Shown piece after piece: positions 29,701 to 53,650 of a DNA stretch of 64,000 nt. Numbering within the stretch: the stretch's first letter is position 1; each line of letters opens with the position of its first letter. Source of the DNA: Trileptium ribeirensis (lineage: Eukaryota; Nematoda; Enoplea; Enoplida; Thoracostomopsidae). The notes beneath the pieces are model-generated. The model made no database searches. It saw nothing but the letters and a program-made list of their open reading frames with translations, and was not told the DNA's origin. Made by a program: the position numbers and the translations under genes. Where the stretch lies: positions 1-64,000 of the forward strand of contig JASANE010001471.1 in the NCBI GenBank assembly GCA_030248225.1. Direction: 5' to 3'.

Positions 29701-32700
29701 TTGGCGGTGGTCGGGGGTGGGTAAAAGCCTGAGATCAACAGGTCGGGCGCGAGATAGAGCTCAGGTCGTTTCACCATTCGCTTCGTGATTGGAAAGAACC
29801 ATAACAGACAAATTAATTGACTTCTACTGACTCCACCATACCCCTAACTAGCAACGATCGGGGGGTAATCAAATGTGCTAAAATCCACCTTTTGACCCTA
29901 GCGCTGGGGTAAGTAACAGCAAGCACCTGGGTTAATATTTTTTCAAAAGGCACCCAGGGGACAGGTATGATATATGAACAACGTTTATGTACCATGCATA
30001 AGTAACGAGCAATGACCAAAAAAGGAATTTGGTCGGGGGGGGTAAAACTGGGGTTCATGCCATATCGACAGCTGTCACTCTCCATGATTGGAGTAGATTT
30101 GAAAATCGTGCAATTAAAAATGTTGTGTAGACCTGACTAATCCTGCATAGAAATGAATTTGGACCATAACTTCGAACACGGAGCCACGACACTACCCGAA
30201 AAAAAGAGGTCGTAAAATTAGTCATTACGATTTTTGTCAATTTGGGACTTATGTGGATGTCCAGCCTCTTACGGCGTGCATGAAGCCGAGAATTTTTTTT
30301 TGTTTGAACTAGCTAACTAATGACGCTTCCTAGCGCAAATAACATTTTTACCAGTTCCCTGCACGTTTACGTGTTACTGGCCAAAATATCCAGTTTTACC
30401 CCCCCCCCGACCAAAAGGTCATCATAGCGTGAAATGACCCTTTGGTCAACTGATATTATATTGCAACAAGATCAAGGTTGATTCGGTGAGTGTTCTCTCG
30501 GGATTTGGAGAAATTATAAACAGGAAATCAGTGAATCTAGGATATTATGTTTCACAGGAATCATGTCGTTCGGCTGTTTTGTCTTGCATGAAACGTTATG
30601 TTGATGTTGCCCTGAGAATAAATTTGATCAATTCGTGGTCAACCGAAAGTATTTCAGCAGAAGCCAAAGTTGATCCGGTGAGAGTTTTCTATACATTTGA
30701 AGAAAATAAAACCAAACACCGCCGAATCTAGAATAATACGTTTCGTCCAAACGTGCCGAAGTTCGTCTAACCTTCTTGTCCATTACATGATCGTATGCAT
30801 TGTATCATTGCAGCCAATGCCTTTGGTGCTGCTCTTGTTATGGCTACCATGTTGTCACATTGTCTACTTACATTATGCATTATGTTACTGTTACTGTATG
30901 TATGTAGTTGTTCTAATACATTGACAAAGCGTCACTTCCTATAATGTAACTTGTGCTTTCGTAGTGATTAATTCGGGTTGTTCAGCTTGATTCTGAATTA
31001 TCTTGTTATATATGCTTTTGAATGTAATAGTCCTAGCATCTAACAATGTACGTACATAGTTCAATTCTAGGAAGTTATATATAGAAAAATTTATTTTGGA
31101 AAATCTTAATTTATATAAAAATTTCACGGAGTAGTTGAATAAAAATTTTGTGAACAAAGTTTCTTCAAATAGCACATAATTTGACAAAGAATTCTTTTTG
31201 ACAGTCTGTTCGTCGCATAACTCTTTAACAGGATTGACGGATTTTTGCAATTTCTTATTCGACGCATTGTCGAATGTATGAAGTTTGTATGCATTGGGAT
31301 TTTATTTGCGCTGCTATTATGCTTTATAACCCAAATTCTGAGAAATTTGGCGCGCACTGGAGACTTTATGTTATGGTCATTTGGGGTCGCCCAATTTTTT
31401 TGAGTTATAACTCTTGTCAGAATAATGGGATCGAAAATGACAGATCTAGTTAAGACCTACAACCTTATTATTATTCATTTTTGTCACCGTTTTCGAGCTG
31501 TAGCCGCGCTTAGAAATAAAAGATTTTTCGCGAATGTTCTCGAACAATTCTCGATAAATTAACAGATGTTCAATATTGCTTGCTATTCTCGAATGTTTCG
31601 CATGGATTTGAAATATTTTGTGTTATTTTGTTAACCTGACTGTAAGTTTAAAAAATCCTACAAAAAGATTTTCCAAATTTTGATAAAGTAAGTTTTCTGC
31701 TTTTTGGGGTGAACAATGGAATTATATGGTTATAACCCGGTAAACACAACAGTTCCATTGATTTAATCCAATATCGTGTCGTCTTTAACTCTGCGAAACG
31801 GTGCCAGTGCAACATTTGGTCAATTTTGGCACCAAAATTGCAAAACTTTGCAACTTTTCAATCTAGATGTATATAGATGATTATAATGTGTCTATTATAG
31901 GTTTTAGAGTTGCTAAATACGATAAAAGCTTTTGTGTTTTGGTGGTTAGGCATGAAACAATACCGGTGTTGGATCCTACCACATAAAAATCACACCTTCC
32001 AATAATATTTTTTTAATTTGTGATTTTTATAAATTTCAAAAGTTTTCGTATTTTTGGTAGGGCTGTAGACCGACCACATCAGCGCAAACCGGTCACTCTA
32101 ATAGTATAGCCGTGAGTGTTACATATTATATACTCGTATACGAAAATTTTCATGATGCCCCGTCAAAGCCCACTACATAATGCATAGCATTGGAGCATTG
32201 GACGACATGAATCTATTGCCAAATAGGAGAAAATCAAAATACAGTCGTTGCATCTTTTTACATTTCAGAACACACCAGGTTTGCATATACCGACGCCAAC
32301 TTTAACGAAATCAAGTTCAACCATGCCATGCACTCCGGAGCACGTTTTAAAAGACCCTTGTACCAGTGCTAATCATGAAGACCGCTCACGTATTGGCAGT
32401 ACGGGTATATCGACAACTTCATTAATGGTTCCTGTAATATCTACGCATCCTTCAGCGACGTACGACAAGAATTCGTACGTTTCTAGCTCTTCCACTATGC
32501 CAAGTCCAGCGAAGAAGTCAGTAGCTAAAGATCAGCAGCTGAATCTACTTGGCCATAATAATGCCAAGGCGACGCAGTCGACAACATCCACATCACCTGT
32601 AAGCCCCGTCGGACCTGTCGCATGGCGTGTACCTGTTTCTGCATTTCACAGATTGGTAATTTTACGTTTTAATAGCATAGTTATTCATATAGGGGCAAGG

Positions 32701-35700
32701 TCAAACCTTGAAGATGGGACCTCCGCCAAACAATATTTTATTATCTCGCCCTGAAGGCTCAGCACACCCTTTCTCCGCGCCGAATGCGCGCAAGCGCAAA
32801 TATTGGCAAAAATTGGGTAAAATTTGTAGGAAATTGGGAAGAATTGGGGAAAATTTTTGGAAAAGAATAGGAAACTAAATTATTAGTTGCTAAAATTTGA
32901 AAAATGCCGCTCCCTTTGTATGGAACCATCTATACCGCTGAGGCGCGAACCTCGGACACCCATGAATCTGCACAGTTACGGGCAGAAATATGTGTAAATC
33001 TCACGAGTCGTAAACGGAAAATTTGAGGAAATTTAGTAACGATTCAATGGGCATTCCCAGTTTTTTCGAAAACCACTATTAGCAATATTTTGCGATAACC
33101 AATCTTTTATTTTAGTCCCTGACTGTACTTATGGTTTCGTAATGCTTGATATGTAGCTGCAGTACGGCAGATTTTTTGTTGGGCTATAACAGTAAATTGT
33201 TCGGATCCGCAAATTATAGTTATTGCAGATTATGTGAACGTGAAACATAAAAATGATTAGTCGCTGGTGCTTGTCGATTGTGCACATTTTTGAAACGCTA
33301 TGCAGCTATAGTCTTCTGGATGCCAACAGGATGTTTTGCACTACGCAACAACCAAAATACATCGATGTCTTTGCAGGAGGTACATAATAAAAAAATATGC
33401 CAACATTTTAGGCGGCGGTGTGGAATTTGGGCTTACTTAATATTATTGTGGTTCTGGATTGAGCTTCTTGACAATTTCATAGTCTCAGAAAAGGAGTGTA
33501 TATAGTACTCCAGGAATACACTAAAGGCACAGTTTCGGCCATTTTTGGGCAGATACCAAAGCTACAATAGGACTCTTGATTTCATCTTCCAGTGATTAAT
33601 AGTTAGTAACTTTTTAAAACCTTCTATCATCACAACTTTCAAGAAAAGCTAGAATTTTTAAGCATCATTTTTTCACTTTTTTGGTACAAACGCTTGCTGT
33701 ATTTTAATCATAAACCCAATAGAACAATGTTGTCTTAACCGTATTCAGCATGCCCGAAATATATAGACCCATAGAACATAAATTATGTAGCCCTCTGCCC
33801 TTACTTGTATTAGACGTCAATATTATTAATGTCTTAGTATCTTTGGAAGATTTTGTGCTTGAGATAGGTATACAAGTTTTAAAAAAGTGAAATAGGTTTC
33901 ACCGAACCGCTCGAACATTTTAAACTATCTGTCGCAGTTTTCTGTAAACATTATGTACCATACACACATCATAGTATATACTGGTTTTGTGATAAATGGA
34001 AAGATAAGGGAATATTTAAGGGTAACCTATCCTCTGGCTGCAGTAGGCGAGAAGTTATTGAGTTGACACTTACTAGTACGTTAATCGAACAGTATATCTT
34101 TAGTTAGGAAGTATTCTGAATAGTTAGGAAGTACAGAATATTCTGGATCGGATCACAAGTTTATTCGGTTCAAAATTGGTGTGAATACTGTTAAAGCTGA
34201 GAAACCTTAGGTTAATATTGGGATTTTTAATTGGAACTCTTATAAAGGAAGAGTAGGGCAGATTATAAATGCTGAAGATTGTGTTCAATGTAATAGTAAA
34301 TTTATGACATTGACATTACTGTAATGAAATTAACTAGCACACTTATAACTGCGGCGCAAGAGAATAATTGTCTAATGAACTCTAATGGGGCGAATCACAA
34401 TAGAGGGTGGCTATTGCAATTATAAGTTAGCTGGTGCTAAGAGAAAAGTTAAATATAATAGTAATTCTGCCTAGTCCAAACTTCGGAAATTATAGCCCTG
34501 GCTCACCTATCGGAGGGCCAATTTTTTGCCGGATTTTGTCGCTTTTACACGTTAATTTTTCTCATCAGGGGCTTTGAGCCGGGGGTACCCGAATTTTTGC
34601 CAAAGGGTGTCTCCGTTTTGCCGGGGGGGGCAGCCGAAAATGCCTCCCGCCCACCTTGGATTACCCAGTAATTGTTGCAAAATCTGTATAAGTACCTAAT
34701 TAAAGATTGGAATTTGGAAAAATGGAGGAAATTCTGGAATCGATTCATTCGGTTTCGGAAAGTAATCGAATAAACAAGATTACGAAAAAGAATAATCAGA
34801 AAAAAGAAAAGTTGGGGCAAATCACAGACGGAAATGGATTTTTCGTTTACGGCGATGCAGAAGTTTTGGAAGTAATGATGCGTACTCACGTATCAGGGTG
34901 TGAGGCCGATGATGGAGTTAATTTTGTTTATAGGGATAGACCTATTAGAATCAGCCGACTTGAGGTGGATCTAATATTATGATTAACCAGAATAATGTGA
35001 TTGAATCAGTAAGAAGCTTTGGTGCTTATAAAGAATCGGATATGATTTATCCGTTTCTGTATTGAGCAGATAGCTGATATTTTGGTAACTATCGATAGAT
35101 CATATTTCCGACTAGACCATATGTCTCAGTCTTGTAGACAAAGTAAAATGATTTTTAGTCCGCAACCAGTCAAAGAAGACTATTTACTCTAAGTCGTATC
35201 GTCGGATAACACTTTCGTCATTTTTGTTGAAAGCATTGGAAAATATTCTAAATAGTTATATAAGAAATGACGTTTTAAAGGGAGTTTCTCTACATGAAAA
35301 TCAGCACGCCTACAGACCAGGTAGAAGTACAACTTCGGCTCTGCAATTTATCTTGGATTGAACGCCAAATGAACTTTGGCAGAAACTCAGCTGCAGTCTT
35401 TCTGGCTATATGCGGTGCCTTTGACTGTACTAGGGTTTCTTTTATCCTTTAACAGTTCAATAACCGGTCAATTGCAATGTGTGTCAAGTATTGGCTATTA
35501 GAACTGCTGTAAACGAGAAGTATAACAGCTGAATTGGGGTGGCCAGATGCATTGTTTTAGCTTCCAGAGAATTTCCCCAGGGAGGCGTGCTATCTCCACT
35601 CCTGTGAAACTTGGTGGTTGATGAAGTCTTGCAAAGCGTCAACAGTAATTGGGTTGTATGCGTGGGGTATTCTGATGATTTGGCAGTAATGGGGTCTTCA

Positions 35701-38700
35701 ACCTCTTTACAAGATTCCAGAATGCGCTACTAGAATATTTGGGTGGTGTGAGCGTGGAGGACTAGCTGTGAATACAGCTAAAAGTAACAGTGTCCACTTC
35801 ACGAGGAAAGGGAGTATAAATGGGTATAGGCAGTTGATGATTTTTGTTGCAGCTGTACCGGATTCGAATGAAGTTAAATATTTTGGTTTAATACTAGCAA
35901 AATAATTTGGAAGCCAAATTTGATTTAAAAGCGTAGTAAAGCCATTAGGTTTTTGTTCTCTCTTAAAAGATTTGCAGGTTGTAATTAGTGGTTGAAACCA
36001 GGTATAACATATTTTTTGTATAAGTCTGTAGTTATGCCGTCGGTGATGTACGGCGTGGTGCGCGGCTGGCACAGATTACATCCGGAGTCATATATCGGCT
36101 TTCTTAAAAATGTTCAATTAGCTACAAAATTAGCTTGTTGCATGGTTACGGGTGCTTTTAGAACGACTCTGCTTAATGTACCGGCGTTGAATATCATGCC
36201 CATTGATGTATTGGCCAAAGAATTGGCGCTGAAGGAATACCACAGACTCAAATGCATGGGTTTTTGGAGAGATTATTCAATTAAAGTAGTCGGGTAACAG
36301 ACGATAGCGGAGTAAGCTGCTAAAAACGGTCCCGTTCTGAGCATGCCTTCAGATAGTTTTGTACCAATAAGGAATAACCAATTCTGAATTTACGTGGAAT
36401 TTAGCGTCGACTCAGGGGAAAATACTGAAATAGCATGTTACACAGATGGATCGGCCGGCAACAGGAGCAATGAAATGAATTGTGGTGGGGGTGTCTTTAT
36501 TGTAAACAAAGTATCACTATCTATCCACTTGGTCGACATTCAACTGTCTTTCAGACAGAAGTTACTACTATATGCAGATGCACAAAAATTTTAGAAGAAA
36601 AGAAATTTATGAACAGAAGTATCGCTATTTTTAGCGATAGTGAAGCTGCACTTATGGCATTAGGTAATTCCCGAATCAAATCTTGGTGCGTTGAAGGATC
36701 GAGTACAAATTATGTAGTACGAAAAAATAAACGAGGACAAAGCAAAAAACAGATATACTGAATATGCATGTCTGGAAAAAGAAAACGAGAAAAAAAAAAA
36801 AAAACACACACAACAAAACAAAAAATATAACCCAACAAAAACCCGAACAACAGCCAAAAAAACGAGCAAGACAACAGCAAGCAGAACAAAAACCAAACGA
36901 TAAAATACACACCCGCAAAGCCAAGCAAGGCAAGCCCAAGGAACACGGAGAGCACACACTCGAGCAAACGGCGCTCACACAAACGCGCCGCCTAAACAGA
37001 CACGCGCACACTCACAAGCACGCAAGATATGGCGAGCGAAAAAGAATACCGCTCAAGATAAAAAGATATCCACACCATATACGCACAGGACGGCAAGACG
37101 CGTACTCAGAAACAACGAGATACGAGTGACATAAAACAAGAACAACAAGCAAAACTATCAAACCAATCAACAAACTACCAAACAGACAAGCAGAGAAAAA
37201 GAAAAAAAATCCCAACCAACAATATATGCACGAGATAAATAAAAATCAATAGGACAGAATCTCAGACAACACTACCGAAAACCTCGAACCAACCCTCGCA
37301 ACAATCACAGACCTAGATACCAACCCCCACAACAGCGAACAGCCTCAACCAAACCACCCAGCACACGACACACCCCCCCCCCCAAAAGCAGCCCCCACAA
37401 TATCCAAACAACAAAACCCCACACAAACCCCAAAACACCAAACCACCACCCAAAACCAAACCACCCCCACACAAAAAAAAACACCACCCCACAAACCACC
37501 AAAAACAAAAACAAAACACAACAAAACACACCAACAACCCCCAACACAACCAAAACAAAAAAAAACCCACAAACAACCCACCCCCCCAAAAAAACCACCC
37601 ACCCGCTAGAATGCATAAAACATCTTAATAGGGTTGGTAAAAGCATAGTTTGAATATAGGTTGGATGAAAGGGCATTATGGGTTGATTGGGAATGAATTA
37701 GCCGGATGGTTGGGTAAGAAGGGATCGGACACCGCTTTTGTGGGTGCCGAAACTTGCATGCCTATAAGTACTACAATGGTTAATACTTTCTTAAAAGATT
37801 GTTCATATAGGGACCATCAGTCAAAGTGGCGGGATGCAAATAACTGCTTGCACACTAAATGTTTCTTGAAGGAAACCTGTGTTTCTATGTAAATTTAATA
37901 AAGACGGAATGAGAATGGCAATTTCTTACTGGGCAGGGAAATTTTATGAAACATTTGAATAACTTGAAGATTGAAGATAATGATAAGTGTAGAAGGTGCG
38001 GTAAAGATTTTGAAACTGCAAAACACTTGAATGTAGTAAATTAAGAGATTTAAGATTGAAATTCTGGTTGTTTTCCATTATCCCTCAGCTCGCGTTTGCC
38101 CAAAAATGGTCAGATTCTGGAAGTTTTGGTATTTTTGTGATCCTCGAGACCTCCCCTGATCATTTCAACCGACAAATCGAATTTTTAAAATTTTCCATTT
38201 TTTGGGTCCCAAGGGTCCCCTTGGGAACCCAAAAAATTTTTTCTTAAAAAATAGATTTTTACCCATCATTCGACGCGGCTTGACGAGGTCCGGTAACCAG
38301 ATCCTAAGTTATGGAAAAAGGTGTCGAAGGCTGAGAGGCTTACAATTGAACAGTTTTGACGATAAATTAGGATCCAATTACCGGACCTCGTTAAAAATAA
38401 CGCCATTCGATTCAGCTCGTCAAGCCGTGTCGAATGGTAGGTAAAATTCCAATTTTTAAGAAAAAAATTTGGGTTCCCAAGGAGGGACCCTTGAGACCCA
38501 AAAAATCGAAAATTTTAAAAATTCTATTTTTTGGTTGAGTTCTAATTTCTAGAATCTGACCATTTTGGGGCAAACGCGGGCTGGGGGATAATGGAAAAGA
38601 ACCGAAATTCTTTGGGTGTGGCATTTTGGATAGCCCCCATGGCTATGTATCAACTAAAACTACTAAATTACTAGGTTTCTGGAATAGGATTAAATTTTAG

Positions 38701-41700: not shown

Positions 41701-44700
41701 GTAATGATTTTGCGTATCTTCTTGGAAATGGTTATTCATGAAGCAATAAAGTTTGCATGAATATTTCCTACATGCACAGAAAGTTTAAATGCTGACAGTT
41801 GTTGCCGCATTCAGCTCCACAGCTGGATTGTATCAGTACCAGATAAAGTAATATGTGAACATTCTGTTAGTTCTAGTATCGATAGTTTGTTTCTCACACA
41901 TGCCTGTTGCTTCAATTAAAAGTACAATAATAACTGCATACACGATAGCATTGAAAATGCTAATGTCCCGATAAACACTAATTTCTTCATTATTCAACTT
42001 CAACAATGTTGGTTTTTCTTTTAGTAGCTTATTTGGGTCAAACGATAAACTTATTACATGAAATAATGTAACATTAAATTACCGAAGCAGATTTCTGTGA
42101 ATTTTGTTAGTAGGTTTAAATCTCCATAAATTTTGCTAAATAAGTTTTGCTCTAAATTTCACGGTGGGAGTGTCGTGAAATTTGAAAATAAAAACTAAAC
42201 AATTGAACAAACGATTGATTAGGAGACCGAGCTTTAAAGCGAATCGAAATGGTTGTGTTTTATGTAATTTTCAACGTTGAAATGGTTATTAAGCACTGCC
42301 TAGCCACGCTTGCTCAGAATATTTCATATAATAAGAATATTGGCGTTGATACCATCTTTGAATTTAAAACCATGAACGAGTACCTTTTTTCGATGCGAAA
42401 ATTGTATTGATGATAATGTTTCTTTAGAATTTTCAGTTTCGAATTTCAGTGTCAACATTCTAACCAATATATTATGTAAATAACGTTCCTGCGTCAGTGC
42501 AACATCTACGGTAAGGTGCGCGCACGAGGATGGTAAAAACGACTGCTGCAATCGATTCTGTATAATACGGATTATATTCTACCACTCATGCTGTTAGAAT
42601 CGCAACTATCGAAATAAATCTAGGTAAAATCAGGTGAAGTTAATCTAAATCGGAATTTCTAGAATCTATTCGACATTTTAAACTCTGCAATGAGTTTAAA
42701 TAAACTTTAGCAGAATTAATTCTGCAAATACACAACAAATTCTACTCAAATTTATTTAGGGTGGCGTCTTTTATAGTAGAACGGATTCTCATCTAGAATT
42801 GATTCAACAACACAATTGATTCTGGCATATATTTTACCATCTCGGTGCATGCATCTTTCAGTAGTTACTGGCTAAAACAACAGCAAAACTAATCTCAATA
42901 AATGAACAATATCAACAAAATTTCATTCCGAATTACATAATACGAAATTAATTTATTGAATGGTATAGTTACATTACTGTGTATATACGGGGTATATACA
43001 CATTATAAAATTTAATAAAGCTGCTTTCTTACATTTCAGAACACTCAGGGTTTGCGCAGTATGTTAGCACCCGTTCCAGCAACAATCGGTACAGCGGTGG
43101 CAGGGATTCTGGATCAGGCTACAAAGGAGTCCTGTACTAGAGCAAAACTAGAAGGTCAATCATTTGTCAATCTTTGTTCAAGCGTGCGGCCAACTTTGTT
43201 TATGCTTCCTGAGGTTTCAAGGCAGCACTTGTCACCGACCTATGGTGGCACTTGTCACGTGGCGTACTCAGCTGACGCCGCAGCACAGCCAGAGCCAGCT
43301 AATGAACCATTAGTAAAAATGCAACTGAATACACAAGGCGATAGAACTGCAAAGACGCCGTGGTCGTCAATTCATCCTGTCGCATGGCCTCTGCCAGCTT
43401 CGGCTTTTCATAGCTTGGTAATTTTACTGATATCGTTTCATACTATAATGTATAGTTTAGCAGTAATGATTATACCTTTACCGTCGGAGTAGATCTTAAT
43501 GTTGATATATGGCAACATTTTCACTGCTACCTCTCGTTCGTTATGGAGCAGAATGGCAAGTTAAATTTAATGATGATTAGTGATATGACCTGTCCACAGA
43601 TTAATGTCACAGCAAAGCGGGGAGGGGTGGCAGGGCGTGTGGTTAACCCCATTTTCGAAGCACTCTCTGTTCGCCCGCACTCACGACACCGCCATGTTCA
43701 GCGAAATCTATGATTAACGTCTCTAAATTTGTATCTTCTGTATGGTACATTGCTCTACTGTATGCTGGCCTGTCCACAGCCCTCCCAAAAGTGGGGATTT
43801 CGTAGGACCCATGTCCATTCTCGGGAGAAATGTCAAAGCGTTTGGGAATAAATTTTGCTTAAAATACTAAACATTTCCATATTTTCACATAGTTTTAATG
43901 CCGCGCATGTATTTTCAATTGATAAATCGACGTTTCAGCAATAGTAGTAATAATTAATGTTTAAAAACATTTTGCATAGAAAAACATAAATTTTAGACAA
44001 AAATTTTTTCGATTTAGTTGAACATGGGGGTTTCGGCTGAGTAGGGGGCGGACATGGGGGGTTTAGAAAGTGGGAGATCCCTATCCGCCACTGTGGACAG
44101 GCCATGTATAATGGTACATTCCCAGCGCGTATTGCGAACGCTTGGAACAACTTAGCTGGCCAAATTGACAACAATAATCTCGTTACAACTCTAGACTCGA
44201 AAATTTTTTAAATCATTGCTCACGCTAATGGACCTACTTACTAAAAGCTACTTAAGATATGAAAGAAATCTGTAGCAGACGTTGCTCAGGTTCTACCACG
44301 TATTGGTCCATGCAAATTGCTACTATTTGAGGTTTGTATATTACTCGAATCGGTTGACGTAAATTCATTTCAAAATATCAAAAACTACTACAGTAAAGTA
44401 TAACAGGCGAGGACTAACATTCTCCTCATTCTGCCGTTATATTATTCACTTTCTAGCTTCAACCATTTCGGTATTTCGGCAATCTTCCGCGAACGTTAGT
44501 AAGCATGCTATGCAAACGGCGTTTAATGAATATTCATTCTCGAGCCGTATGAGAGCGTTCAGAAGCAGAAAACTATAGTTGTAAAGTCTCGTATGTACCA
44601 TAGGATCTGAATAAAACTTGTATAATATTGTAATGTTGTCTATCATAAATATTTTTGAACCCGCAGCGAGCGAAGTTTCCTCTAATAACGCATAATTGAA

Positions 44701-47700: not shown

Positions 47701-50700
47701 GTTTGTGTGCCAGGATCGAGCTATGGAAGTTTCCGGTCGTGGAGTATTGATAGAATATTATTGTTGGTAGCCAGTGGCAATTCATTTGCAATATTACCTT
47801 AAAGAATACATAGACAGTTTAGGCAGTATAATGTTTGTAATTGGGCGTTTACGAAAAGTGTTCCGAATGGACCAGAACCCGCATCGCAGCGTCTAGTGCC
47901 GATTGAAATTGGCCTAATGCTTAAACAAATTCCCAAAAAAGCAATTGAGAATGGTAGAAGGTCAGATGTTGATCTTTCGTGAACAATTTGGAAAATTCGC
48001 GAAAACATTGTCTTTATTATTTACCGTAATTATTGTTGTAGACGCCAGAAATGACTTTCGAGCAAGCGGACATCCATTATGGCTAATAGAGAGCGAGTAC
48101 AGTGATATAAATTTTTTTCGAGTTGCTGACGAACTACAGATGTCATTATTCTGTCGGGTATTGTATCACAACCTCATTCAGCATCGGTTAAACAAAGTAA
48201 CAAGCGTTGTAAAGGTCTATCAATTTGACATAATGGTCAATGATTTCCGCCCTTGATAACTATTAGGACATGCCGTGAGATTATCAATTGAGTTATTAAA
48301 ATTTCAGAACGCGCCTGGTTTACATCTACCAACGCCAAATCTAGCGACAAGCGGCGCAGCAACGTCAGGGACCCTGGAGCAGGTTTTGAAGGAGCACTGT
48401 ACGAGGGTGAGACTTGAAAGTCAAGCATATGCCAACAATGTAGTTGTATCGAATCCGTTTACGGTTCCTTTAATTTCAACACCGTCTTCAACTGCAATGT
48501 GTGACACTTATAATAGTTCTTATCGTTGTTCGACTGTTGCAGCTGCGTCCGGACAGCAGGAGCTAGCGGAAGAATTGTTATTTAAAGCTCGGCTCAATTC
48601 ACCATGCAACACTTATTGTAACAGTGCAAAGGCGACATTGGCAACAAGTCTCACGCCTTCTTCTGCTAACTGCCTGGCGTGGCCTATGCCTGTTTCGGCT
48701 TTTCATAAACTGGTAAATTTTACGGTATCTTCTTCAACAACATGAAATCGCAATAAAAGATAATTGTGGCCAAAGTCAATTCTAACCTTGCTATTTATAT
48801 GCGGGATGCGCCGTCCTCGATATACTAAGTCTTAGCCTAAGCTTAGATTTTATATGAGTGATAAACTTAGCCTTACACTAAGTCGAGAGGCTGCCGCTTT
48901 CCGAACCATCCCCAAACGCTAAGCTGTTGTTTTATGCAGATGTAACGTCAGGTTCCTCAGCTTCACTCGTACCAAAGATAGTACATATATTTTGATACAT
49001 ACAGTCGGGACCAAATATAAATAAAGTCAAATTTGCTAGGTCAAAATTTTCTTTAATCGCAATCAATCTTAATTTTACAAATTTTTAATTTATCTAATGC
49101 GCTAAGATGGAATTCAATCAAAATTTCGATTAATGGAAATGGATTGAAATTTCGATGAATTATTTTTGGCCGCGACTGTACTTTATGTTACATAGGTCTT
49201 AGGTTTGTAACATTGTTTAAATTTTCAGATTTCTATTTATATCTATACACAAAATATATTTTACTACATTAATGTAAACAGCTTTGTGTACTAGTTCTAT
49301 TAACAAACCTGCGACACACGCCGTATCTAACAGAATACGTAATCAGGTGTTAAGCGGCTTTTTTGCAAGTCTGGTAATGTAGCTCCGTCGAGATTGTTAA
49401 TATATTAAAATTATTGATATTAATGCTATTTTAAAACGAATTTCTTTCGATTAAGTTGCTATCGAATTGCGTGGTATCGACAGTCGTTGTATGTAGGCTA
49501 TCGACAGTCGTTTATGGCGTCGCTTTTCTGATGTATCGTAGAAAATTTTGATATGTTTTGATACTGTGGTTATGCTGATGTGGTGTAACCAGGGTTTTTT
49601 CGCATAATTTTTGCATTTTTCAAGACATGTAGACTTTTTTTCCTGAACGAGAGACGTTTGAGCCATGATGGCTGCGCAAAGACAGCAAGCACAACAACGA
49701 AAACACCAAAACGACCCGAACTTGGCAGAAACTAATTTTTGGCCGATACATTCTGCATGTAATAACTAGATTTATGTCTTTACGATGTATGTTCTAATAT
49801 ATAACAGGTAAGAATACACATAGCAGTTAAGAGTAGACTATATTTCAGACATATCGTCGTGGTCCACACCAAAAGGCGTATATGAATTTTTGACATTTTG
49901 AGATATTTCATTAATAACTAAGTTTCATAAATTTTTGGACTTGGTTGTATGTACTTGTGTTGGAAAAATTAAGCATTTTCAGTAGGGCGATAAGCATTTT
50001 TATTTTTACGAAAAACGTAAATTACGCATTGATCAAAATGGAAAAGTAACATTTTGTCTTGTCTAAGTTTTTGAGCACAATAATTTTATATTGTTAGCCC
50101 AAATTTAGTAGAATAGTACTCACTGCGAGAGTTAATGCTAAACTTTTTTCAACGCCTTCTAACGGTTTAGCCTTTCTAACGGTATTGTTTTTTAGTTTAG
50201 TATCTTTATATCGTGTCTACATTGTTTCATTTAAATATAAAACGCGGCTTCAAAAATTTTTTATTTTGCCAACCTCGTGAAGAGACGTCATCTGGGCTTC
50301 CTACATGATGACTCTTGGCTTAGATAATTCGAAGTTGCGTTTTTATTGTAGGAATTTATAATATGTACCGTGGTTTCATTGTGTATTCGTTAATTCCAGG
50401 CTGCTCCGGGATTTCGTATATCAGCACCCATTTTACCAACATCGGATCAGATTTCGACGGAGTCCAGTATGATACCTCAGTTTAAAGGTCAAGCAACTGT
50501 GATTAAGCCACATTTATCGGAAAGTCCTATTGTGGTCCCTGTAATTTCTACATCATCGCAGCCATCAGTACCTTGTGGCAATCCGCATGTAGTAACGTTA
50601 TCCAGGGTACCTGGTCCTTCAGAACAACTAAACGAGCCGTTAGTTAAACCTTTGGTGACTGTACGTGCCGAGATGATTGCTAAAACAGCACTGTCAACAA

Positions 50701-53650
50701 TTAATCCTGTCGTGTGGCCTATGCCAGCTTCGGCTTTCCGCAGCTTGGTAATTTTCAACTAGTGTCTTTTTTGGCAATTTGAATCGCAGCGAGCAATGCG
50801 ACTAGGGTTTTTCCTCAGGAGACCTAAATGAAACAATTATTTTGTCTGCCTGTGTCACGCACAACAGCTTCAGAAAGAGGTTTAAAACTTGCGTACAGTT
50901 TTTGTAAGATTAGTAATGTAAGAACCCATTAGAACAGTATGGTATAATCCCACCACAGTTATGCGTAAGTCCACTTTAGGTGCGTACACCATGGTTGTTC
51001 TTTTGTCAAAATCACGAACTGAGTCCTTCGCGTTCACATTTCTGACATCCGTATTATTCGCATTTTAGTGAACAAGCACTCTGCGGTCTACGGTGGAAAT
51101 TTGCGTACGCGCACTTTTCTCCAATTCGCATGGTTGTCCCCGTTCACTACATGACATGCAGAATCGGACAGCTATGTTCCATGTGCATATTATGGTAACT
51201 AAAAACTAAATTGGTAATTGCGTTTTTCCATTTTTCAGAAAAATGCTATGCTAAATCGCAAAATTAGACTGCGTCAGAACCTACATGCTACAGTACCCGC
51301 CAAAAATGACTGTCGCTCGCTCGCGCTCTCCCCCTCGCTCGCGACTCTCCCTCACTCGCGACTCGCTCGAAATAAATTTGTTCTAAAAATAGAATTTTCT
51401 ATTAATTTAAATAGTTGCGAAATCTCGAGCGAGCCACTCGCTCGCGACTCGCTCGAAATGCGACGGTCATTTTTGGCGAGTACTGTATATCACAAATCTT
51501 TGTTCGCGTACAATGATCGCTTTTACGACCCTGAACTGACTTGACAAAAGAACAACCCAAGTGTACGCACCTATTCACGGATTAGTAATAAAAAATGTGA
51601 ATTTCTTTCCGGCACACCGGTGCGCAACAGTTTCCTTTGTAGCTATACTCACAGACTTTCGTTCTATCTGTCAGATGGAATTCTCTCAGTAAGTAGCCTA
51701 TTTCAAACCTATTTAGGATTTTTAATAATTTAATAAAAATATTTAGTTACGGTTTCTCGGAGAGAAGCCACGAACTCCTGGTTTTGATGGCTTACCGATA
51801 GAACACTACATGCATCGCGATCTGACCAGATTGCGTCCTTCCGCGTCTGCGCTTGCACTTATCCGTGACTGTAGTTCTAAGAAAGCCTTAGAAATCTAAA
51901 ATACTGCGTCTGCAAAACCCAGTGGTTACGAAATAAACCGCCGTACTTACAAAATATGGTAGCCATATAATGCAATTCGCGTACCTATAAAATTGTGGAT
52001 TATCGATATTTCTCGGAGACAAATGAAAAATCCCCGATAAATGCGTTTGTGAGTGAAACGAACATAAACCATAATAATTTGCCGTTGCGTTCAAATCTGG
52101 GAGACTCAGATAATATTCGTGTTTTTGGTATTTTTTCGTACGACCTGGCTGTCCAGTAACTAAATTCTGGGTTTGTGTTCTGCAGAAACGTTTAAAAGAT
52201 TATAATCAGGACGCAGCGTAGCGTAGTGGAGATTGTGTGTTGCAGGTGTGAAAGCTTTTGAATTCCGTCTGTTTGTGTGATCCGCCATAACATAACTTGA
52301 CTTACGGATTTTAATGATCTTAGGCTGATTCTAACCTGCATAGTCGATTTACTGTACATCCCGATCGATTTTCGATTTGGGGTCTGCTTCTGGGGTCATT
52401 GTTCAAAATGAAGGCTTATTAGACCATTTTAGAATCATTCACGGAAGCAATGTTATTTCTATCTTAACTTAGAATTTTTTTCTGTGGTTGGTTTTATGTG
52501 ATATTAAAGTGTTAAATGCCGATGCCTCTTTTTTGTTTTCCGATTAAGGCTCCAGTTTTGGAGTTATGGGGTTTGGAGGTATGGCACCGTCGTGGTTCCG
52601 CGACCCAAAATTAGAAAATTTGTTCTGACATCCTGGGAGGTTGCAGAATTTCTCTTGGGGGTTTTCGGGCATTGCAAACTTATTGCCATTGCTGGTGTTG
52701 GTTTTACTCTGTGATCACCTATGGTTCCATGGGTCCGGTGGTATGGCGCCCCAGTCATTGGAGGTTAAAGGTCAAAAAGGGTTTTTACCAGTTTAGTACC
52801 ATTCACGGAAGCAAGGTTATTTTTATCTTAACTTTCGAATTTTTTATCTGGTTGGGTTTATTTAATAGTAAAACGATAAATGGCGATGCCACTTTTTTGT
52901 TTTTCGATTAAGGCCCCGGTTATGGGGTTTGAGGTATGGCACCATTGTGGTTCATTCATGCAAAATTCGAAAATTTGTTCTAACGTCCTTTGTGGCTGAA
53001 AAGTTTCACTGGGGCGTTTTCGGGCATGGAAAACTCATTGTCGGCGTTGATTTTGCTCTGTGATACCCTTGGTTTCAAGGCTACGGGAGTATAGCGCTCC
53101 AAGGTTTAAGGTCAAATGACAAAATGAGGGCTTTTACCTCATTTTAGTACCCTTCACGGAAGCAAGGTTATTTTTATCTTAACTTTCGAATTTTTTTCTC
53201 TACTTGGTTATATTTCACAGTGAAATAATAAATGCCGATGCCTCTTTTTATTTTTCGGAGGGCTGTTGACAGTCCATAAACACGGTTCCAACTTTTCCCA
53301 GTCTTACTTTTTCACGGTCGTGAAATAACAACAAAGCGCTCAATTAAATGCTAAATTAAATTCAATCTCTCAGCCTTAAACAAACATGTTTTACAAATAA
53401 TTTTGTTTTTTAATTTCAGACCACTCCGGGTTGTCACATATCGTCGCCGCCTATTCTAAAAACAACTGGAGTTGGAATGCCAGAGATTGTGCACCAGGAT
53501 TTGAAAACACCTTTTGGTCGACCTAAAATTGACGATCAGTCAGGTTGGAAAACAACCGCACCGTCGTCTGCAGCTGCAATGGTTCCTGTAATTTCGACAA
53601 TGCCCTCAGTGGCATATGGAATAATTGCTCCAACTAGCAATACATGTTAA
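2605..53650 (+). CDS. Mondo: Mondo/ChREBP-type glucose-sensing transcription factor, 15 exons (gene span)
   Basis: Mondo proteins (MLXIP/MondoA and MLXIPL/ChREBP in mammals) shuttle between cytoplasm and nucleus, respond to glucose-6-phosphate and, paired with Mlx, activate carbohydrate-response genes. The predicted join is 2605-2706, 4437-4609, 8204-8307, 9397-9467, 10989-11114, 13529-13694, 15993-16073, 17376-17545, 27156-27530, 32269-32655, 39355-39741, 43040-43417, 48308-48712, 50400-50747 and 53420-53650. All junctions are GT-AG and phases match throughout, leaving 1167 codons before TAA. Exons 1-7 carry the Mondo conserved regions in the correct order: INSGHFMAS, LTKLCNYFNLAY, RLNNVIWRAWQIQ, VILEGMYWKRRYE and FIQPGLVQLQPSLED. 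This identification comes from remembered family motifs, not a database search. Exons 10-15 are copies of one duplicated exon. The C-terminal bHLH-zipper is absent from the window, so the 3' end is unresolved. Identity of the N-terminal half is very likely; the exact chain of exons 9-15 is inference. Confidence 0.87.
4437..4609 (+). CDS. Mondo: Mondo exon 2 (conserved region II, export-signal helix)
   Basis: The exon begins in phase 0 after TTTTTTTAG and ends in phase 2 before GTAAAT. An acidic, Pro-containing stretch precedes DLSLTKLCNYFNLAY, which matches the family pattern SLTKLFECMTLAYSG. In ChREBP that segment includes a leucine-rich nuclear export signal. The last two bases pair with the first base of exon 3 to make a codon just before the PKWKNF motif, as in the family. 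Confidence 0.88.
4741..4925. repeat. Dispersed ACGTTCGTTTG repeat, copy 1
   Basis: Rich in the words ACGTTCGTTTGT and ACTAACxTTxTTACG, it matches the complement of about 47035-47280, including CAGTAACG, TGCACAAAAAAA and CTAAAATACGAC in the same order. No coding capacity was seen. Confidence 0.6.
5745..5935. repeat. Dispersed GAGAAATTCGGT repeat, copy 1
   Basis: This contains GCGAGAAATTCGGTCTCTCC, CTGGGGGACC and TTACAATAATAATGCACATC. The same words in the same order occur at 13885-14035. Unclassified repeat. Confidence 0.55.
6110..6490. repeat. Relative of the TGGCCTGTCCACAG element, opposite orientation
   Basis: Words CCACCATGTTC, TTTCCCCCGAGAATGAACAT and GGAGGGCTGTGGA parallel the complement of 43760-44080. 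The ends are decayed. Confidence 0.45.
6605..8075 (-). mobile_element. L2-like non-LTR retrotransposon remnant
   Basis: On the minus strand the LINE order is clear: QCALDPIPMHF near 8040, VGLDLSAAFDTVDHKILLSR near 7650, QSSVLGPILFNMYMTPLADI near 7460, a YTDDI active-site block near 7380, and RIDYCNSLLYGLSDVSLKPV with TRTRKYDHITP near 6900-7010. These are characteristic of L2/CR1-group elements. The frame is broken at least at about 7100 and 7730-7890. The usual YADD reads YTDD. It lies in Mondo intron 2. Confidence 0.85.
8204..8307 (+). CDS. Mondo: Mondo exon 3 (conserved region III core)
   Basis: This short exon lies between a TTGTAG acceptor and a GTAAGT donor. It encodes PKWKNFTGMKL and RLNNVIWRAWQIQ, nearly identical to the PKWKNFKGL and RLNNAIWRAWYIQY signatures that are specific to Mondo proteins. 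In mammals this region contacts 14-3-3 and takes part in the low-glucose inhibitory domain. This exon is the strongest single identifier of the gene. Confidence 0.93.
9397..9467 (+). CDS. Mondo: Mondo exon 4
   Basis: This 71-base exon lies between a TTTTTAG acceptor and a GTAAGT donor, entering in phase 1 and leaving in phase 0. It encodes KPKYCFFAVPEEGTYW, aligning with the family segment KSPVCGFVTPLQG that directly follows the WRAWYIQ motif. It has no meaning alone, but frame and position fit exactly between exons 3 and 5. Confidence 0.86.
10989..11114 (+). CDS. Mondo: Mondo exon 5 (conserved region IV with basic cluster)
   Basis: This 42-codon exon is phase 0 at both ends (TATTTCAG acceptor, GTAAGA donor). 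VILEGMYWKRRYETVV and EYSRWRHYNHRRRRFKNK correspond to the family's AVVLEGNYWKRRIEVVM and EYHKWRIYYKKRLRK. The clustered Arg/Lys residues match the nuclear-localisation region of ChREBP and MondoA. Confidence 0.92.
11350..11990. repeat. Dispersed repeat X, copy 1
   Basis: Shared, diverged words link this to 15050-15560 and 45230-46210: TAAGGTTGxGCCGA, GGTCAAATTTTxTCxxxxTT, GGATGCGCACxAATTTTTT, CAATGGGTCAAATTAAAAAA and CTCGCGAAC. It is non-coding as far as can be seen. Confidence 0.6.
12800..13112. repeat. Two monomers of an about 165-bp tandem repeat
   Basis: Two adjacent units share TTGGxCATTCTAGTxxCTTTGTGA, TATCTACGTATTTTTGGAT and a GGATCGCCCAxxxT-type end. The unit start falls near 12800 and 12965. 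Related monomers form a longer array at 46236-47005. In both places the array lies downstream of dispersed repeat X, so array and repeat probably belong to one mobile unit. Confidence 0.65.
13529..13694 (+). CDS. Mondo: Mondo exon 6 (acidic, GRACE start)
   Basis: The exon runs from an ATCTTATAG acceptor to a GTAAAG donor, entering in phase 0 and leaving in phase 1. It has an acidic stretch (DDDEFSNFF) followed by DTLFQSLNQPYMFPNPKE, which fits the family pattern of DTLF...PFxFPxPRE that opens the glucose-response activation element. Confidence 0.87.
13885..14035. repeat. Dispersed GAGAAATTCGGT repeat, copy 2
   Basis: It carries ACCGAGAAATTCGGTTTCCC, ACTGGGGGACACC and ATAATAATAATGCATATTA, in the same order as at 5745-5935. 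It lies just upstream of another repeat copy at 14060. Confidence 0.55.
14060..14400. repeat. Dispersed repeat, GCCxGGGGGC family, inverted copy
   Basis: This is the reverse orientation of the copies at 2262-2460 and 18005-18330: GACTGATTGGAAACAAAATT mirrors the fragment after the GGGCTCCC word in the other copies. It contains repeated TGAACCxGGG and TTTTGCCAGxGG words. Confidence 0.55.
15050..15560. repeat. Dispersed repeat X, copy 2
   Basis: This copy has CGGAAAGGAGTCGAAA, TTAAATTAGGTACCAGTCGA and GAGCCGAGTTATTGCC, lining up with 45420-45640 (GGAAAGGAGTCAAA, TTAAATTTAGTGCCAGTCGA, GAGCCGAGTTACGGCC). Confidence 0.65.
15993..16073 (+). CDS. Mondo: Mondo exon 7 (conserved region V)
   Basis: This 27-codon exon begins after CTTTTCAG and ends before GTATGT. 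FIQPGLVQLQPSLEDIM is a near match to the family segment ADxIQPSLxQLQPNLDDLMD, in the glucose-response conserved element. It enters and leaves in phase 1, so skipping it would keep the frame. Confidence 0.9.
16247..16733. mobile_element. 0.49 kb inverted-repeat DNA element (MITE) in Mondo intron 7
   Basis: The two ends are inverted copies over about 40 bases: the left begins ATGCGCGACTAAACTTAAAA, then GACCCCGGCAACCATCCTGT; the right end read in reverse gives ATGCGGAAGTAAACTTAAGG, then GACCCCGCCAACCATCCTAT. No transposase was seen and no convincing target duplication was found at these limits. Confidence 0.75.
17376..17545 (+). CDS. Mondo: Mondo exon 8 (Ser/Thr/Asn-rich linker)
   Basis: The exon follows TGTTTTAG and ends in phase 0 before GTACGT. 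It is rich in Asp, Asn, Ser and Thr and ends with a short hydrophobic run (SGVLNRAIDASSLGL). No family motif is recognised, but the phase joins exon 7 exactly. It is followed by the longest intron of the gene, about 9.6 kb. Confidence 0.76.
18005..18330. repeat. Dispersed repeat, GCCxGGGGGC family, copy 3
   Basis: It carries GCCCCCTGGCATTTTC and TTGGGCTCCCACAGTTCATC, as in the copy at 2262-2460, and shares AGTGTTTCTGACA and TGGCAGTGTTTC with the complement of 14150-14180. Confidence 0.55.
18600..19325. mobile_element. Possible inverted-repeat element
   Basis: The left edge has ATCCTTTCAGCTATGCCCCC; the right edge read in reverse has GGTCCTTTCGGCTAGCCCCT. Ends of this type resemble those of the hAT-like element at 38066. 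The match is imperfect and target duplications were not found. Confidence 0.4.
19834..21754. mobile_element. hAT-like foldback element, interrupted by a nested element
   Basis: The left end GGTTCTTTTCCGTTATCCCT is mirrored at the right by GGGATAACGGAAAAGA, but that end is cut after AAAAGA by the 1.58 kb element at 20171. Its last bases (AAGAACC) reappear beyond the nested element, at 21748-21754. The outer element without the insert is about 340 bp. The flanks (AAACTATT and CTAGTGGC) are not duplicates of each other. Confidence 0.72.
20171..21747. mobile_element. G-run DNA element, copy A (1577 bp), 4-bp target duplication
   Basis: The terminal inverted repeat is GGGTCATTTCACGCTACGAT, read in reverse at the right end with a few changes. 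Flanks are AAGA at 20167-20170 and AAGA at 21748-21751. Inside are several short TGGTCGGGGGG...GGTAAA boxes (near 20671, 20831, 20981, 21001, 21150 and 21332), with the mirror image near 21700. There is no transposase frame. Copy B at 28875-30440 is very similar along its whole length. The superfamily is not assigned; 4-bp duplications occur for example in Sola elements. Confidence 0.88.
21859..22036. mobile_element. TA-flanked MITE (CAGTACTCGCC family)
   Basis: Ends CAGTACCCCCCAAAAATGAC and the reverse of GTCATTTTTGGCGAGTACTG, each next to TA. Inside are runs of CGCTCGCTCG on the left, their complement on the right and an AT-rich centre (AATAGAATTTTCTATTAATT). The whole can fold as a hairpin. 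The ends and TA flanks suit Tc1/mariner-type transposases. Confidence 0.88.
24254..24409. mobile_element. Diverged MITE of the CAGTACTCGCC family
   Basis: The left end TACAGTACTCGCAAGAAATG and a right part with GCGAGTACTTAG then TTTCTGGAAAGTACTG match the family. The inner AGCAAATTTxTTTCGAGCGAG is recognisable. It is older than the copies at 27582 and 51289. Confidence 0.65.
26240..26660. repeat. Dispersed repeat W, inverted copy
   Basis: Words here are the complement of 31640-32060: TTTGGCGCCAAAATTTTACC mirrors AATTTTGGCACCAAAATTGC, and TTGAAATTTATAAATCACAA mirrors TTGTGATTTTTATAAATTTC. A third copy is at 44880-45250. Confidence 0.65.
27156..27530 (+). CDS. Mondo: Mondo exon 9 (Thr-rich)
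   Basis: This 125-codon open exon is phase 0 at both ends. It is rich in Ser and Thr and contains a run of ACN codons encoding Thr residues near 27330-27350. The acceptor used here is TGCAG at 27155. The better-looking CCTGCACAG at 27139 would put a stop codon in the phase 0 frame after ten codons. It ends at AAG before GTTAGT. No family domain is recognised; it lies where Mondo proteins have a poorly conserved Ser/Thr/Pro-rich middle region. Confidence 0.6.
27582..27760. mobile_element. TA-flanked MITE (CAGTACTCGCC family)
   Basis: A clean copy: TACAGTACTCGCCAAAAATG at the left and, in reverse, TACAGTACCCGCCAAAAATG at the right. The internal GCGAGCGAGTCGC runs are paired across the AT-rich centre. 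It lies 50 bp after the donor of Mondo exon 9. Confidence 0.9.
27954..28079. mobile_element. Short MITE of the same family
   Basis: Ends TACGGTATCCGCCAAAAATG and, in reverse, TACCGTACTCGACACAAATG. The body has lost much of the CGCTCG run. It lies beside the copy at 27582, between repeated TAGTGGTGGGTGTCGG words. Confidence 0.8.
28468..28631. mobile_element. Old MITE of the same family
   Basis: TACAATACTCGCTACAATTG at the left and a right end with TTGTAGCAAGTATTCTGT show the inverted ends, much decayed. GCTCGCTAG and TTTGCTTGCTGCTTACTCG correspond to the GC-rich arms. Confidence 0.55.
28875..30440. mobile_element. G-run DNA element, copy B (1566 bp), 4-bp target duplication
   Basis: Same ends and body as 20171-21747, in the same orientation, flanked by TTTG at 28871-28874 and TTTG at 30441-30444. 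G-run boxes are near 29396, 29559, 29708, 29857 and 30032, with the C-run mirror near 30399. A box present twice in copy A (20981 and 21001) is single here. Small open frames in both copies are chance matches. Confidence 0.9.
31380..32060. repeat. Dispersed repeat W, copy 2
   Basis: GGTGAACAATGGAAT, TAAACACAACA, GTTCCATTGATTTAATCC and CGGTGCCAGTGCAACATT match 45085-45210 (GGTGAACAATGGAAT, TAAACACAACAC, GTTTCATTGTTTTAACAC, CGGTGCTGGAGCAACATT). Upstream, 30960-31360 and 44430-44870 also resemble each other, so the full unit may be about 1 kb. Confidence 0.65.
32269..32655 (+). CDS. Mondo: Mondo exon 10, duplicated-exon copy 1
   Basis: This exon has 129 codons, phase 0 at both ends, between CATTTCAG and GTAATT. 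It opens with NTPGLHIPTP, has EHVLKD in its first third and VPVISTHPSATYD near the middle, and closes with VAWRVPVSAFHRL. These four landmarks recur in the next exons, which shows they arose by duplication. It is rich in Ser and Thr and no known domain is recognised. Confidence 0.74.
32656..34480 (+). other. Mondo intron, no features recognised
   Basis: AT-rich intron between duplicated-exon copies 1 and 2, upstream of the LINE at about 34.7 kb. The short open frame at 33278-33505 has no recognisable motif. No clear inverted-repeat element was found. Confidence 0.6.
36776..37610. repeat. A/C-only low-complexity tract (about 830 bp)
   Basis: The + strand passes from A-rich (36780-36900) through A/C/G sequence with little T to almost pure A and C with runs of C (37320-37600). 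The opposite strand gives apparent long Phe/Cys/Val/Trp frames, which are artefacts of composition. It sits inside the RNase H region of the LINE. Confidence 0.9.
38066..38603. mobile_element. hAT-like foldback MITE (538 bp) with 8-bp target duplication
   Basis: The left end GGTTGTTTTCCATTATCCCT and the right end, in reverse GGTTCTTTTCCATTATCCCC, are inverted copies that continue inward (GTTTGCCCxAAAATGGTCAG). The 8-bp flanks are identical: GAAATTCT at 38058-38065 and at 38604-38611. There is no transposase. It is inserted in the 3' part of the LINE. Confidence 0.92.
39355..39741 (+). CDS. Mondo: Mondo exon 11, duplicated-exon copy 2
   Basis: This exon also has 129 codons, phase 0 at both ends (TTTTAG acceptor, GTAATT donor). 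GTLEQVLKEHSPRVRLENQ and PVPVSAFHRL make it closest to copies 1 and 4. The start has changed (NSSALLTYAPTP in place of NTPGLHIPTP), but position and phase are kept. An intact reading frame among heavily decayed neighbouring repeats suggests selection. Confidence 0.74.
39742..43039 (+). other. Mondo intron between copies 2 and 3, no gene recognised
   Basis: Apart from a 27-bp tandem pair (GTTCGATTCAATGGCATTTA and the following AACCGAGCA, at 40070-40127), nothing was recognised. Open frames at 40365-40727 and 42324-42551 carry no motif known to me. Confidence 0.6.
43040..43417 (+). CDS. Mondo: Mondo exon 12, duplicated-exon copy 3
   Basis: This exon has 126 codons, phase 0 at both ends, between ACATTTCAG and GTAATT. 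It opens NTQGL, carries GILDQATKESCTRAKLEGQ where copies 2 and 4 have GTLEQVLKEH, and ends VAWPLPASAFHSL. The segment NEPLVKMQ near its last third is shared with copy 5 (NEPLVKPL), so copies 3 and 5 form a subgroup. Confidence 0.74.
43766..44104. mobile_element. 0.34 kb inverted-repeat element (TGGCCTGTCCACAG ends)
   Basis: A perfect 14-bp inverted repeat, TGGCCTGTCCACAG at the left and its mirror at the right end. A related single end, GACCTGTCCACAG, is at 43588. The interior has ATTCTCGGGAGAAAT and GAACATGGGGG words that also occur, inverted, at 6110-6490. A clear target duplication was not found. Confidence 0.72.
44880..45250. repeat. Dispersed repeat W, copy 3
   Basis: Matches 31640-31860 in the same orientation. 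It is followed directly by dispersed repeat X, so W and X may be two parts of one larger element. Confidence 0.6.
45230..46210. repeat. Dispersed repeat X, copy 3
   Basis: The fullest copy. The left edge CGGAGAGAAACCACGAACCC recurs at 51755 (CGGAGAGAAGCCACGAACTC). The body matches 15050-15560, and the right half matches 11500-11990. Confidence 0.65.
46236..47005. repeat. Tandem array of an about 120-165 bp unit
   Basis: Four units, marked by TGACTTTGTGxxCACTATTT near 46273, 46569, 46718 and 46883, and by CGATTTTTCGTATCTGGCTC near their ends. Related monomers occur at 12800-13112. A MITE (46305-46483) interrupts the first unit. Confidence 0.75.
46305..46483. mobile_element. TA-flanked MITE inside a tandem-repeat unit
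   Basis: The left end TACAGTACCCGCCAAAAATG and the right mirror GTACTGTA. A sister unit without the insert reads CCAGTACCTAGCTACC (46738-46753); here the same words are CCAGTACCTAGCTA, then the element, then CC. This empty-site comparison fixes the element's ends and its TA duplication. Confidence 0.93.
47035..47280. repeat. Dispersed ACGTTCGTTTG repeat, inverted copy
   Basis: The complement of this stretch matches 4741-4925. It contains many near-palindromic GTTTACAAACG and AACGTTCGTTTATAAAC words. Confidence 0.6.
47295..47405. mobile_element. Short MITE of the CAGTACTCGCC family
   Basis: TACAACATTCGCCAAATATG at the left and TTCTGGCGAGTACTGTA at the right. The AT-rich centre has been lost. 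A smaller remnant of the family lies at about 48036-48103. Confidence 0.7.
48308..48712 (+). CDS. Mondo: Mondo exon 13, duplicated-exon copy 4
   Basis: This is the longest copy at 135 codons, phase 0 at both ends, between AAATTTCAG and GTAAAT. It has NAPGLHLPTP, GTLEQVLKEHCTRVRLESQ, VPLISTPSST and LAWPMPVSAFHKL. Its first half is very close to copy 2, pointing to a more recent shared origin of those two. Confidence 0.75.
49000..49180. mobile_element. TA-flanked mariner-type MITE (CAGTCGsGGCCAAA ends)
   Basis: The left end TACAGTCGGGACCAAATATA and the right end, in reverse TACAGTCGCGGCCAAAAATA, are followed inward by mirrored AATTTCGAT words. TA at both outer edges and CAGTxxxGGCCAAA ends are typical of Tc1/mariner elements. 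It is a different family from the CAGTACTCGCC MITEs. Confidence 0.82.
50400..50747 (+). CDS. Mondo: Mondo exon 14, duplicated-exon copy 5
   Basis: This copy has 116 codons, phase 0 at both ends, between AATTCCAG and GTAATT. It opens AAPGFRISAP, lacks a clear GTLEQVLKEH segment, and keeps VPVISTSSQPS, NEPLVKPL and VVWPMPASAFRSL. The shorter length comes from loss in the first third. Confidence 0.73.
51289..51487. mobile_element. TA-flanked MITE (CAGTACTCGCC family), best-preserved copy
   Basis: TACAGTACCCGCCAAAAATG at the left and, in reverse, TACAGTACTCGCCAAAAATG at the right. The arms hold CGCTCGCTCGCG-type runs, and the centre AATAGAATTTTCTATTAATT is identical to that of the copies at 21859 and 27582. 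Confidence 0.92.
52375..53270. repeat. Tandem repeat, about 360-bp unit, 2.5 copies
   Basis: ATTCACGGAAGCAA followed by GTTATTTxTATCTTAACTT recurs near 52436, 52800 and 53155. Between these, GGCACCxTxGTGGTTC, AAAATTTGTTCTxACxTCCT and GGTTTTACTCTGTGAT recur in order. It lies between duplicated-exon copies 5 and 6. Confidence 0.87.
53420..53650 (+). CDS. Mondo: Mondo exon 15, duplicated-exon copy 6, truncated by a stop
   Basis: After a TAATTTCAG acceptor the frame reads TTPGCHISSPP and later MVPVISTMPSVAYG, then reaches TAA at 53648, 76 codons in. The second half with the AWPMPVSAFHRL ending is missing; a 142-bp minisatellite begins where it should be. It could be a true last exon giving a Mondo protein without a DNA-binding domain (an AATAAA lies near 53690), or a dead copy that is skipped. 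Which applies cannot be told from sequence. Confidence 0.6.
   Translation, partial: TTPGCHISSPPILKTTGVGMPEIVHQDLKTPFGRPKIDDQSGWKTTAPSSAAAMVPVISTMPSVAYGIIAPTSNTC

Follow-up and report, generated by a model that had tools for sequence, protein, structure and literature searches.

A tandem array of six diverged copies of one frame-neutral exon in a predicted Mondo gene of the nematode Trileptium ribeirensis

Results

A Mondo-like gene with an exon array

The window analyzed, that is, the whole stretch of 64,000 nucleotides from position 1 of contig JASANE010001471.1 (assembly GCA_030248225.1; 107,659 bases in the whole contig), carries on its forward strand the N-terminal exons of a Mondo-like gene and, downstream of them at 32269–53650, a tandem array of six copies of one exon, five of them complete and the sixth with an in-frame stop. 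The first exon (2605–2706, + strand) contains the ATG start and MCR1, with the motif NSGHFMAS; it was found by tblastn and with an N-terminal Mondo profile, and it fits the phase chain. It is followed on the same strand by exon 2 with MCR2 (4437–4609; tblastn E 1e-8, profile E 4e-10), exon 3 with MCR3 (8204–8307; profile E 8e-20), exon 4 with MCR4 (9397–9467; tblastn E 0.006, profile E 0.15 only, order and phases fitting), exon 5 with MCR5 (10989–11114; profile E 3e-14), exon 6 with MCR6 (13529–13694; profile E 1e-13) and exon 7, a conserved Mondo segment that follows MCR6 (15993–16073; profile E 1e-10, phases fitting). The profile thus picked out six open reading frames with E values from 8e-20 to 2.5e-4, plus MCR4 at E 0.15, in order and on the + strand. 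Exon 8 (17376–17545, +), which is not conserved, and exon 9 (27156–27530, +), which is rich in serine and threonine, has phase 0 at both ends and is not a copy of the repeated exon, were predicted from open frames and splice phases only, and presumably belong to the gene. Taken through the fifth copy of the repeated exon, the model has 14 exons (2605–50747) with compatible phases at all junctions and 1091 codons without a stop; all of these exons would be joined in one transcript.

The seven N-terminal exons resemble Mondo/MML-1 proteins in both tblastn and profile searches, which bears out the Mondo identity that an earlier note on this DNA had given to the upstream exons. A search with the N-terminal 135 residues gave 369 matching proteins (E ≤ 0.01); nematodes stood at the top of the 120 listed, and nematode proteins, 37–46% identical, were the best relatives among the matches listed. 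A 37-row tree grouped the gene with nematodes (support 100/100); its branch there is long and falls outside the orders that were sampled. A Trichinella Mondo query against the whole genome (687 Mb, 20,229 contigs) gave four matches, and since all four fall on the contig of the array, the genome appears to hold one Mondo locus. Judged by its upstream exons, the gene is a member of the Mondo family, MML-1/MondoA-like.

Concerning MCR6, it reads TDTLFQ and lacks the last S/T of Sx[ST]xx[ST], the glucose-6-phosphate motif put forward for MCR6 in parts of PMC3323566. The site ends in S or T in 67 of the 99 matching Mondo proteins and does not in the other 32. The same region of the gene fits the 9aa-TAD pattern (NFFTDTLFQ), in line with what that part of PMC3323566 describes.

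Several other features lie around these exons. A 1.6-kb repeat is present in two copies, 93% identical (window 20171–21747 and 28875–30440). Short, probably MITE-like elements with the inverted ends GCCAAAAATGA/TCATTTTTGGC occur in several introns (window positions 27592, 27964, 46315 and 51299, with 22016, 27740, 46463 and 51467). Fragments of reverse-transcriptase/LTR type were noticed by eye at window 7127–7759 (− strand), 34704–36760 (+ strand) and 55053–56372. Three tracts 81 to 201 bases long and consisting of A and C alone (window 37404–37604, 62346–62426 and 62444–62579), are possibly poor assembly sequence. Farther along the contig, at about 77000–86000 on the − strand, there are open reading frames like those of Maverick/Polinton-type elements (polymerase, integrase and ATPase by eye).

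Copies, splice sites and reading frames of the array

The copies of the repeated exon (the cassettes, C1 to C6) all lie on the + strand. As a profile made from the six copies contains its own targets, each copy was removed from it in turn and the remaining profile was searched against the 3479 open reading frames of the window. The left-out copy was recovered with E 2.5e-23 for C1 (32269–32655, 129 codons), 3.9e-17 for C2 (39355–39741, 129 codons), 6e-23 for C3 (43040–43417, 126 codons), 9.8e-26 for C4 (48308–48712, 135 codons), 3.4e-9 for C5 (50400–50747, 116 codons) and 6.9e-8 for C6 (53420–53650, 76 codons and then TAA at 53648–53650). The six tandem copies claimed in the earlier note, the last of them truncated, were therefore all recovered in place with E 6.9e-8 or better. 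Searched with the complete six-copy profile, the window and the whole 107,659-base contig, each translated in all six frames, yielded just these six copies before the next match, which had E 2.8 in the window and E 4.6 in the contig.

An ag acceptor precedes all six copies, and C1 to C5 are followed by donors of the gtaatt or gtaaat type. The lengths of these five copies are all multiples of three, with phase 0 at both ends, so that the frame-neutral character proposed for the units holds. They contain no in-frame stop, again as proposed, where about 42 would be expected from base composition (634 codons); on base composition alone, the chance of zero stops in the five copies is about 1e-19. 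Read in the two other frames, the exons contain 5 to 10 stops apiece. In the complete cassettes, all five donors lack the G at position +5, which is missing from 3 of the 9 other exons, it being understood that the cassettes are homologous and not independent cases. By this feature, the cassette donors would be weak and skippable.

The translation of C6 lacks the SAFHxL motif that closes the complete copies, and C6 also lacks the cassette donor; it is preceded by ttaatttcag. Directly after it comes a satellite of 141-base tandem repeats (53666–54390, no strand assigned, 5.1 copies), which probably replaced the 3′ half of the copy. AATAAA or ATTAAA hexamers occur at nine places from 53689 onwards, inside the satellite.

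Divergence of the copies and selection

The copies are 23–52% identical in protein. Their intron flanks show chance identity (0.25–0.32), while the splice signals have kept more (0.81 over the first 10 donor bases and 0.61 over the last 20 acceptor bases). Whole introns have only transposon pieces in common from copy to copy. Judging from these sequences, the duplication of the cassette is old.

In trees of the copies, C2 joined C4 (bootstrap 81 with protein, 62 with DNA) and C3 joined C5 (90 and 96), with C1 apart. The grouping given in the earlier note is thus upheld for C3 with C5 and for C2 with C4; its placing of C1 with C2 and C4 is compatible with the tree, it being only an unrooted tree that sets the place of C1. 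These two pairings suggested that a two-exon block, C2-C3, had been copied once to give C4-C5, but the introns have kept no homology beyond the transposon pieces that would prove it.

A codon model fitted to 101 gap-free codons of the complete copies gave an omega of 0.567 and favoured it over omega 1, the doubled log-likelihood gain being 15.9; when C6 was added (64 codons), omega was 0.665, with a gain of 6.3. Realignment pushes omega down, and to allow for this bias neutral families were simulated along the fitted tree: 100 sets each without indels and at low and middle indel rates, and 30 sets with heavy indels. The observed omega was reached in 0/100, 0/100 and 1/100 sets without indels and with low and middle rates, respectively. 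With heavy indels, 7 of the 30 sets gave an omega of 0.57 or less and 4 of the 30 an equal likelihood gain; these sets were left with 42–93 gap-free codons, as compared with 101 in the real data. The difference between third and second codon positions was 0.156, against simulation maxima of 0.106, 0.122 and 0.149, and the mean identity of the copies was 0.36, against a simulation maximum of 0.32. The earlier note had held that a dN/dS near 1 across all copies would speak against its proposal, and the value found was 0.57, although errors in the alignment can by themselves bring omega down; with the heavy-indel sets in view, the estimate is not robust. So, it can be said that selection on the cassettes appears weakly purifying, a constraint weak but real. 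The retained frames and splice sites are a stronger argument for constraint than omega.

Sequence motifs and predicted structure

The best kept part of the cassette is its closing motif, WPxPxSAFHxL, with a mean pairwise identity of 0.77 over the last 8 columns, versus 0.15–0.53 elsewhere. Concerning the other landmarks that had been listed as common to the copies, GTLEQVLKEH is readily recognised in C2 and C4 and fainter in the remaining copies, and C2, C3 and C4 carry changes in PVIST. In composition, S and T make up 18–30% of the cassettes, P 7–15% and Q 2–6%. That the repeat matches no recognised domain was borne out: no Pfam family was found at E ≤ 1 for the six copies and exon 9, and no PDB sequence at E ≤ 1 for the cassette.

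When the structure of C4 was predicted from an alignment with the other copies, confidence was low (mean pLDDT 49.9); a low pLDDT obtained from six sequences speaks only weakly for disorder. The single short helix predicted, at residues 129–132, lies inside the closing motif, a block with a mean of about 70. Taking together its conservation and its position, WPxPxSAFHxL is predicted to be a docking motif. The 9aa-TAD pattern was also considered as the function of the cassette and found no support: it matched once, in C4 only, which is about what shuffled sequences give. A pattern so little conserved among the cassettes does not support a role in activation.

The possibility that the cassette is a mobile element was likewise rejected, as C4 and C5 used as queries gave significant matches in the 687-Mb genome only on the contig of the array. 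The C4 query matched C4, C2, C3 and C1 and missed C5 and C6 (next match, E 6.2), and the C5 query matched C5 and C3 and missed C1, C2, C4 and C6 (next match, E 0.41); since these queries miss known copies, distant copies elsewhere could escape them too.

Comparison with other Mondo proteins

The earlier note knew of no such array in a Mondo protein, and the searches agree with it within the 120 Mondo proteins listed of the 369. None of these 120 had an internal repeat of at least 40 residues at E ≤ 1e-4, such as is present in the model from the window, and the cassette profile gave no significant match to them (best E 0.22). In tblastn comparisons of the cassettes with Mondo proteins there were 22 matches at E ≤ 1, among them a weak one of C2 with the centre of a Wuchereria Mondo protein (64 residues at 25% identity, with E 0.007 in one comparison and 0.013 in another). 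The stretch is S/T-rich, and the match was not borne out by the profile. Two wider protein searches scored only those candidates that had the most words in common with the query (7984 and 7986 candidates): the first gave one match at E ≤ 0.01, a Mondo protein of Pristionchus, and the second, limited to the five cassettes, gave none at E ≤ 10. The array looks unique among the Mondo proteins compared.

The region downstream of the array

The earlier note had placed the array between the glucose sensor and the DNA-binding domain, and the second half of this placement has so far found no support. Neither bHLHZ nor DCD was found on the 107,659-base contig, which extends about 54 kb past C6, with a C-terminal Mondo profile (best E 0.18) built like the N-terminal one, which finds six or seven exons. 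What does lie downstream, on the same strand, is a rhodopsin-type receptor gene with at least two exons (contig 67322–71358). A coarse, exon-by-exon search of the 687-Mb genome with Mondo C-termini of Plectus, amphioxus and Trichinella turned up nothing convincing: one query yielded no candidate, one a match at E 1.6 and one a match at E 0.6 with a stop. In a search made insensitive by its fast first look, HLH matches in the 687 Mb numbered only 11, none of them Mondo-like.

Discussion

Mondo proteins couple sugar supply to transcription. The gene described here shares with other members of the family (nematode MML-1, MondoA/MLXIP and ChREBP/MLXIPL) MCR1 to MCR6 and the next segment, in the same order. 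According to parts of PMC3323566, a long low-complexity centre follows the MCRs in this family, as it does here; the difference is that the present centre consists of copies of a single exon in tandem. The non-vertebrate centres described in parts of the same work are mostly glutamine-rich, in contrast with the 2–6% of Q in the cassettes. Vertebrate Mondo genes are described in parts of PMC4766361 as having 17 coding exons at matching positions, and no exon array is mentioned in those parts.

Tandem exon duplication with symmetric phases gives adjacent homologous exons of equal phase and with the frame retained, as found here. The case usually studied is a pair of mutually exclusive exons, according to parts of PMC9741552, whereas there are five to six copies here, and the units, of 116–135 codons, are deeply diverged. 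Although tandem exon duplication is already known, its extent and its place in a nutrient-responsive transcription factor are, as far as our searches go, new; no report of an exon array in a Mondo gene was found in the parts of the literature searched. Many in-frame copies of one exon are also found in titin PEVK and in mucins, where they give long disordered or elastic proteins of variable length; the present array differs from these in that it belongs to a transcription-factor gene and its copies are few and much diverged.

The array is most likely a lineage-specific tandem exon expansion that lengthens the disordered middle region of the protein. The fuller account that we favour, in which confidence and doubt weigh about the same, is that of an old tandem duplication of a frame-neutral exon that extends the region after the sugar sensor and in which the number of units varies by splicing. 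The array would likely add five disordered segments, of about 116–135 residues each, after the sugar-response module. The central region of Mondo proteins is described in parts of PMC3323566 as mostly random coil, with portions that activate transcription in ChREBP and MondoA, and because of this activation function the array is placed in the activation region. The cassettes, rich in S, T and P, are thus predicted to act as part of that region, and the WPxPxSAFHxL end of each unit to form a short helix that binds a coactivator. Since every full unit is phase 0-0 and its donor is without the usual G at +5, splicing may vary the number of units included and, with it, the reach or the valency of the factor. 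That the length of the protein and its count of docking motifs vary in this manner has about even odds; what is said here of splicing is inferred.

It is also possible, though somewhat unlikely, that the five complete copies are always spliced in, giving a long repeat region and no variety of isoforms. The retention of open frames and splice sites in all five copies agrees with this, as do the weak purifying selection over the whole set and the lack, in the flanks, of a common intronic signal suggesting regulation. However, the donors without +5 G in all five cassettes favor skipping, and constant inclusion would place 844 residues past MCR6 with no bHLH, a length near the top of the range of 169–890 residues measured in the 94 of the 120 Mondo proteins that have both the MCR6 and the bHLH landmarks.

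The absence of a C-terminus from the contig raises another reading, which seems to us unlikely, namely, that the gene ends in the array, with C6 as the terminal exon of a main or alternative Mondo product devoid of bHLHZ and DCD. The in-frame TAA at 53648–53650, with an AATAAA from 53689, would fit such an end, and so would the contig free of any Mondo C-terminal match by a comparable profile, the receptor gene downstream on the same strand (contig 67322–71358) and the three genome queries that brought up nothing convincing (one without a candidate, the others at E 1.6 and E 0.6). On the other hand, the genome search was coarse and, with only 11 HLH matches, misses many; AT-rich DNA often contains AATAAA, which here lies inside a satellite; and C6 is without the closing motif, as a decaying copy would be. 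A still more doubtful extension of this idea is that the array replaces the Mondo C-terminus, making of the sugar-responsive protein a multivalent, DNA-binding-free scaffold that would capture coactivators through five SAFHxL motifs and would not, together with Mlx, bind promoters.

That the cassettes are mutually exclusive, with one per transcript as in Dscam-type clusters, is improbable. Adjacent homologous exons of the same phase are what such a cluster would present, but the introns are unalignable between copies, and the frame does not demand a single choice, unlike that of units indivisible by three. Nor was an intronic selector or docking sequence of the Dscam type found: in flanks of 400 bases, no 9- or 10-base word was common to at least four, and there was one AT-rich 8-mer, bearing in mind that docking/selector pairs may be degenerate. 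Finally, it is most improbable that the array is a relic or an assembly artefact, made of decayed copies or mis-joined reads, since the truncation of C6 against the satellite and the poor look of the A/C-only tracts (37404–37604 and 62346–62579) are opposed by copies that are 23–52% identical in protein, far from assembly duplicates, and that in the five complete cases have no stops or frame breaks.

Returning to the expansion of a frame-neutral exon as the preferred reading, its interest lies in the region affected. The long central region of Mondo proteins lacks conservation and is for that reason little understood. The copying of one exon provides a natural set of homologous activation-region units, in which conserved motifs can be read and whose number can be altered without breaking the frame. 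If the gene truly has no bHLHZ, its product would be a Mondo protein acting independently of DNA binding; if its transcripts vary in the number of units, the product would be a nutrient-responsive factor tuned by repeat count.
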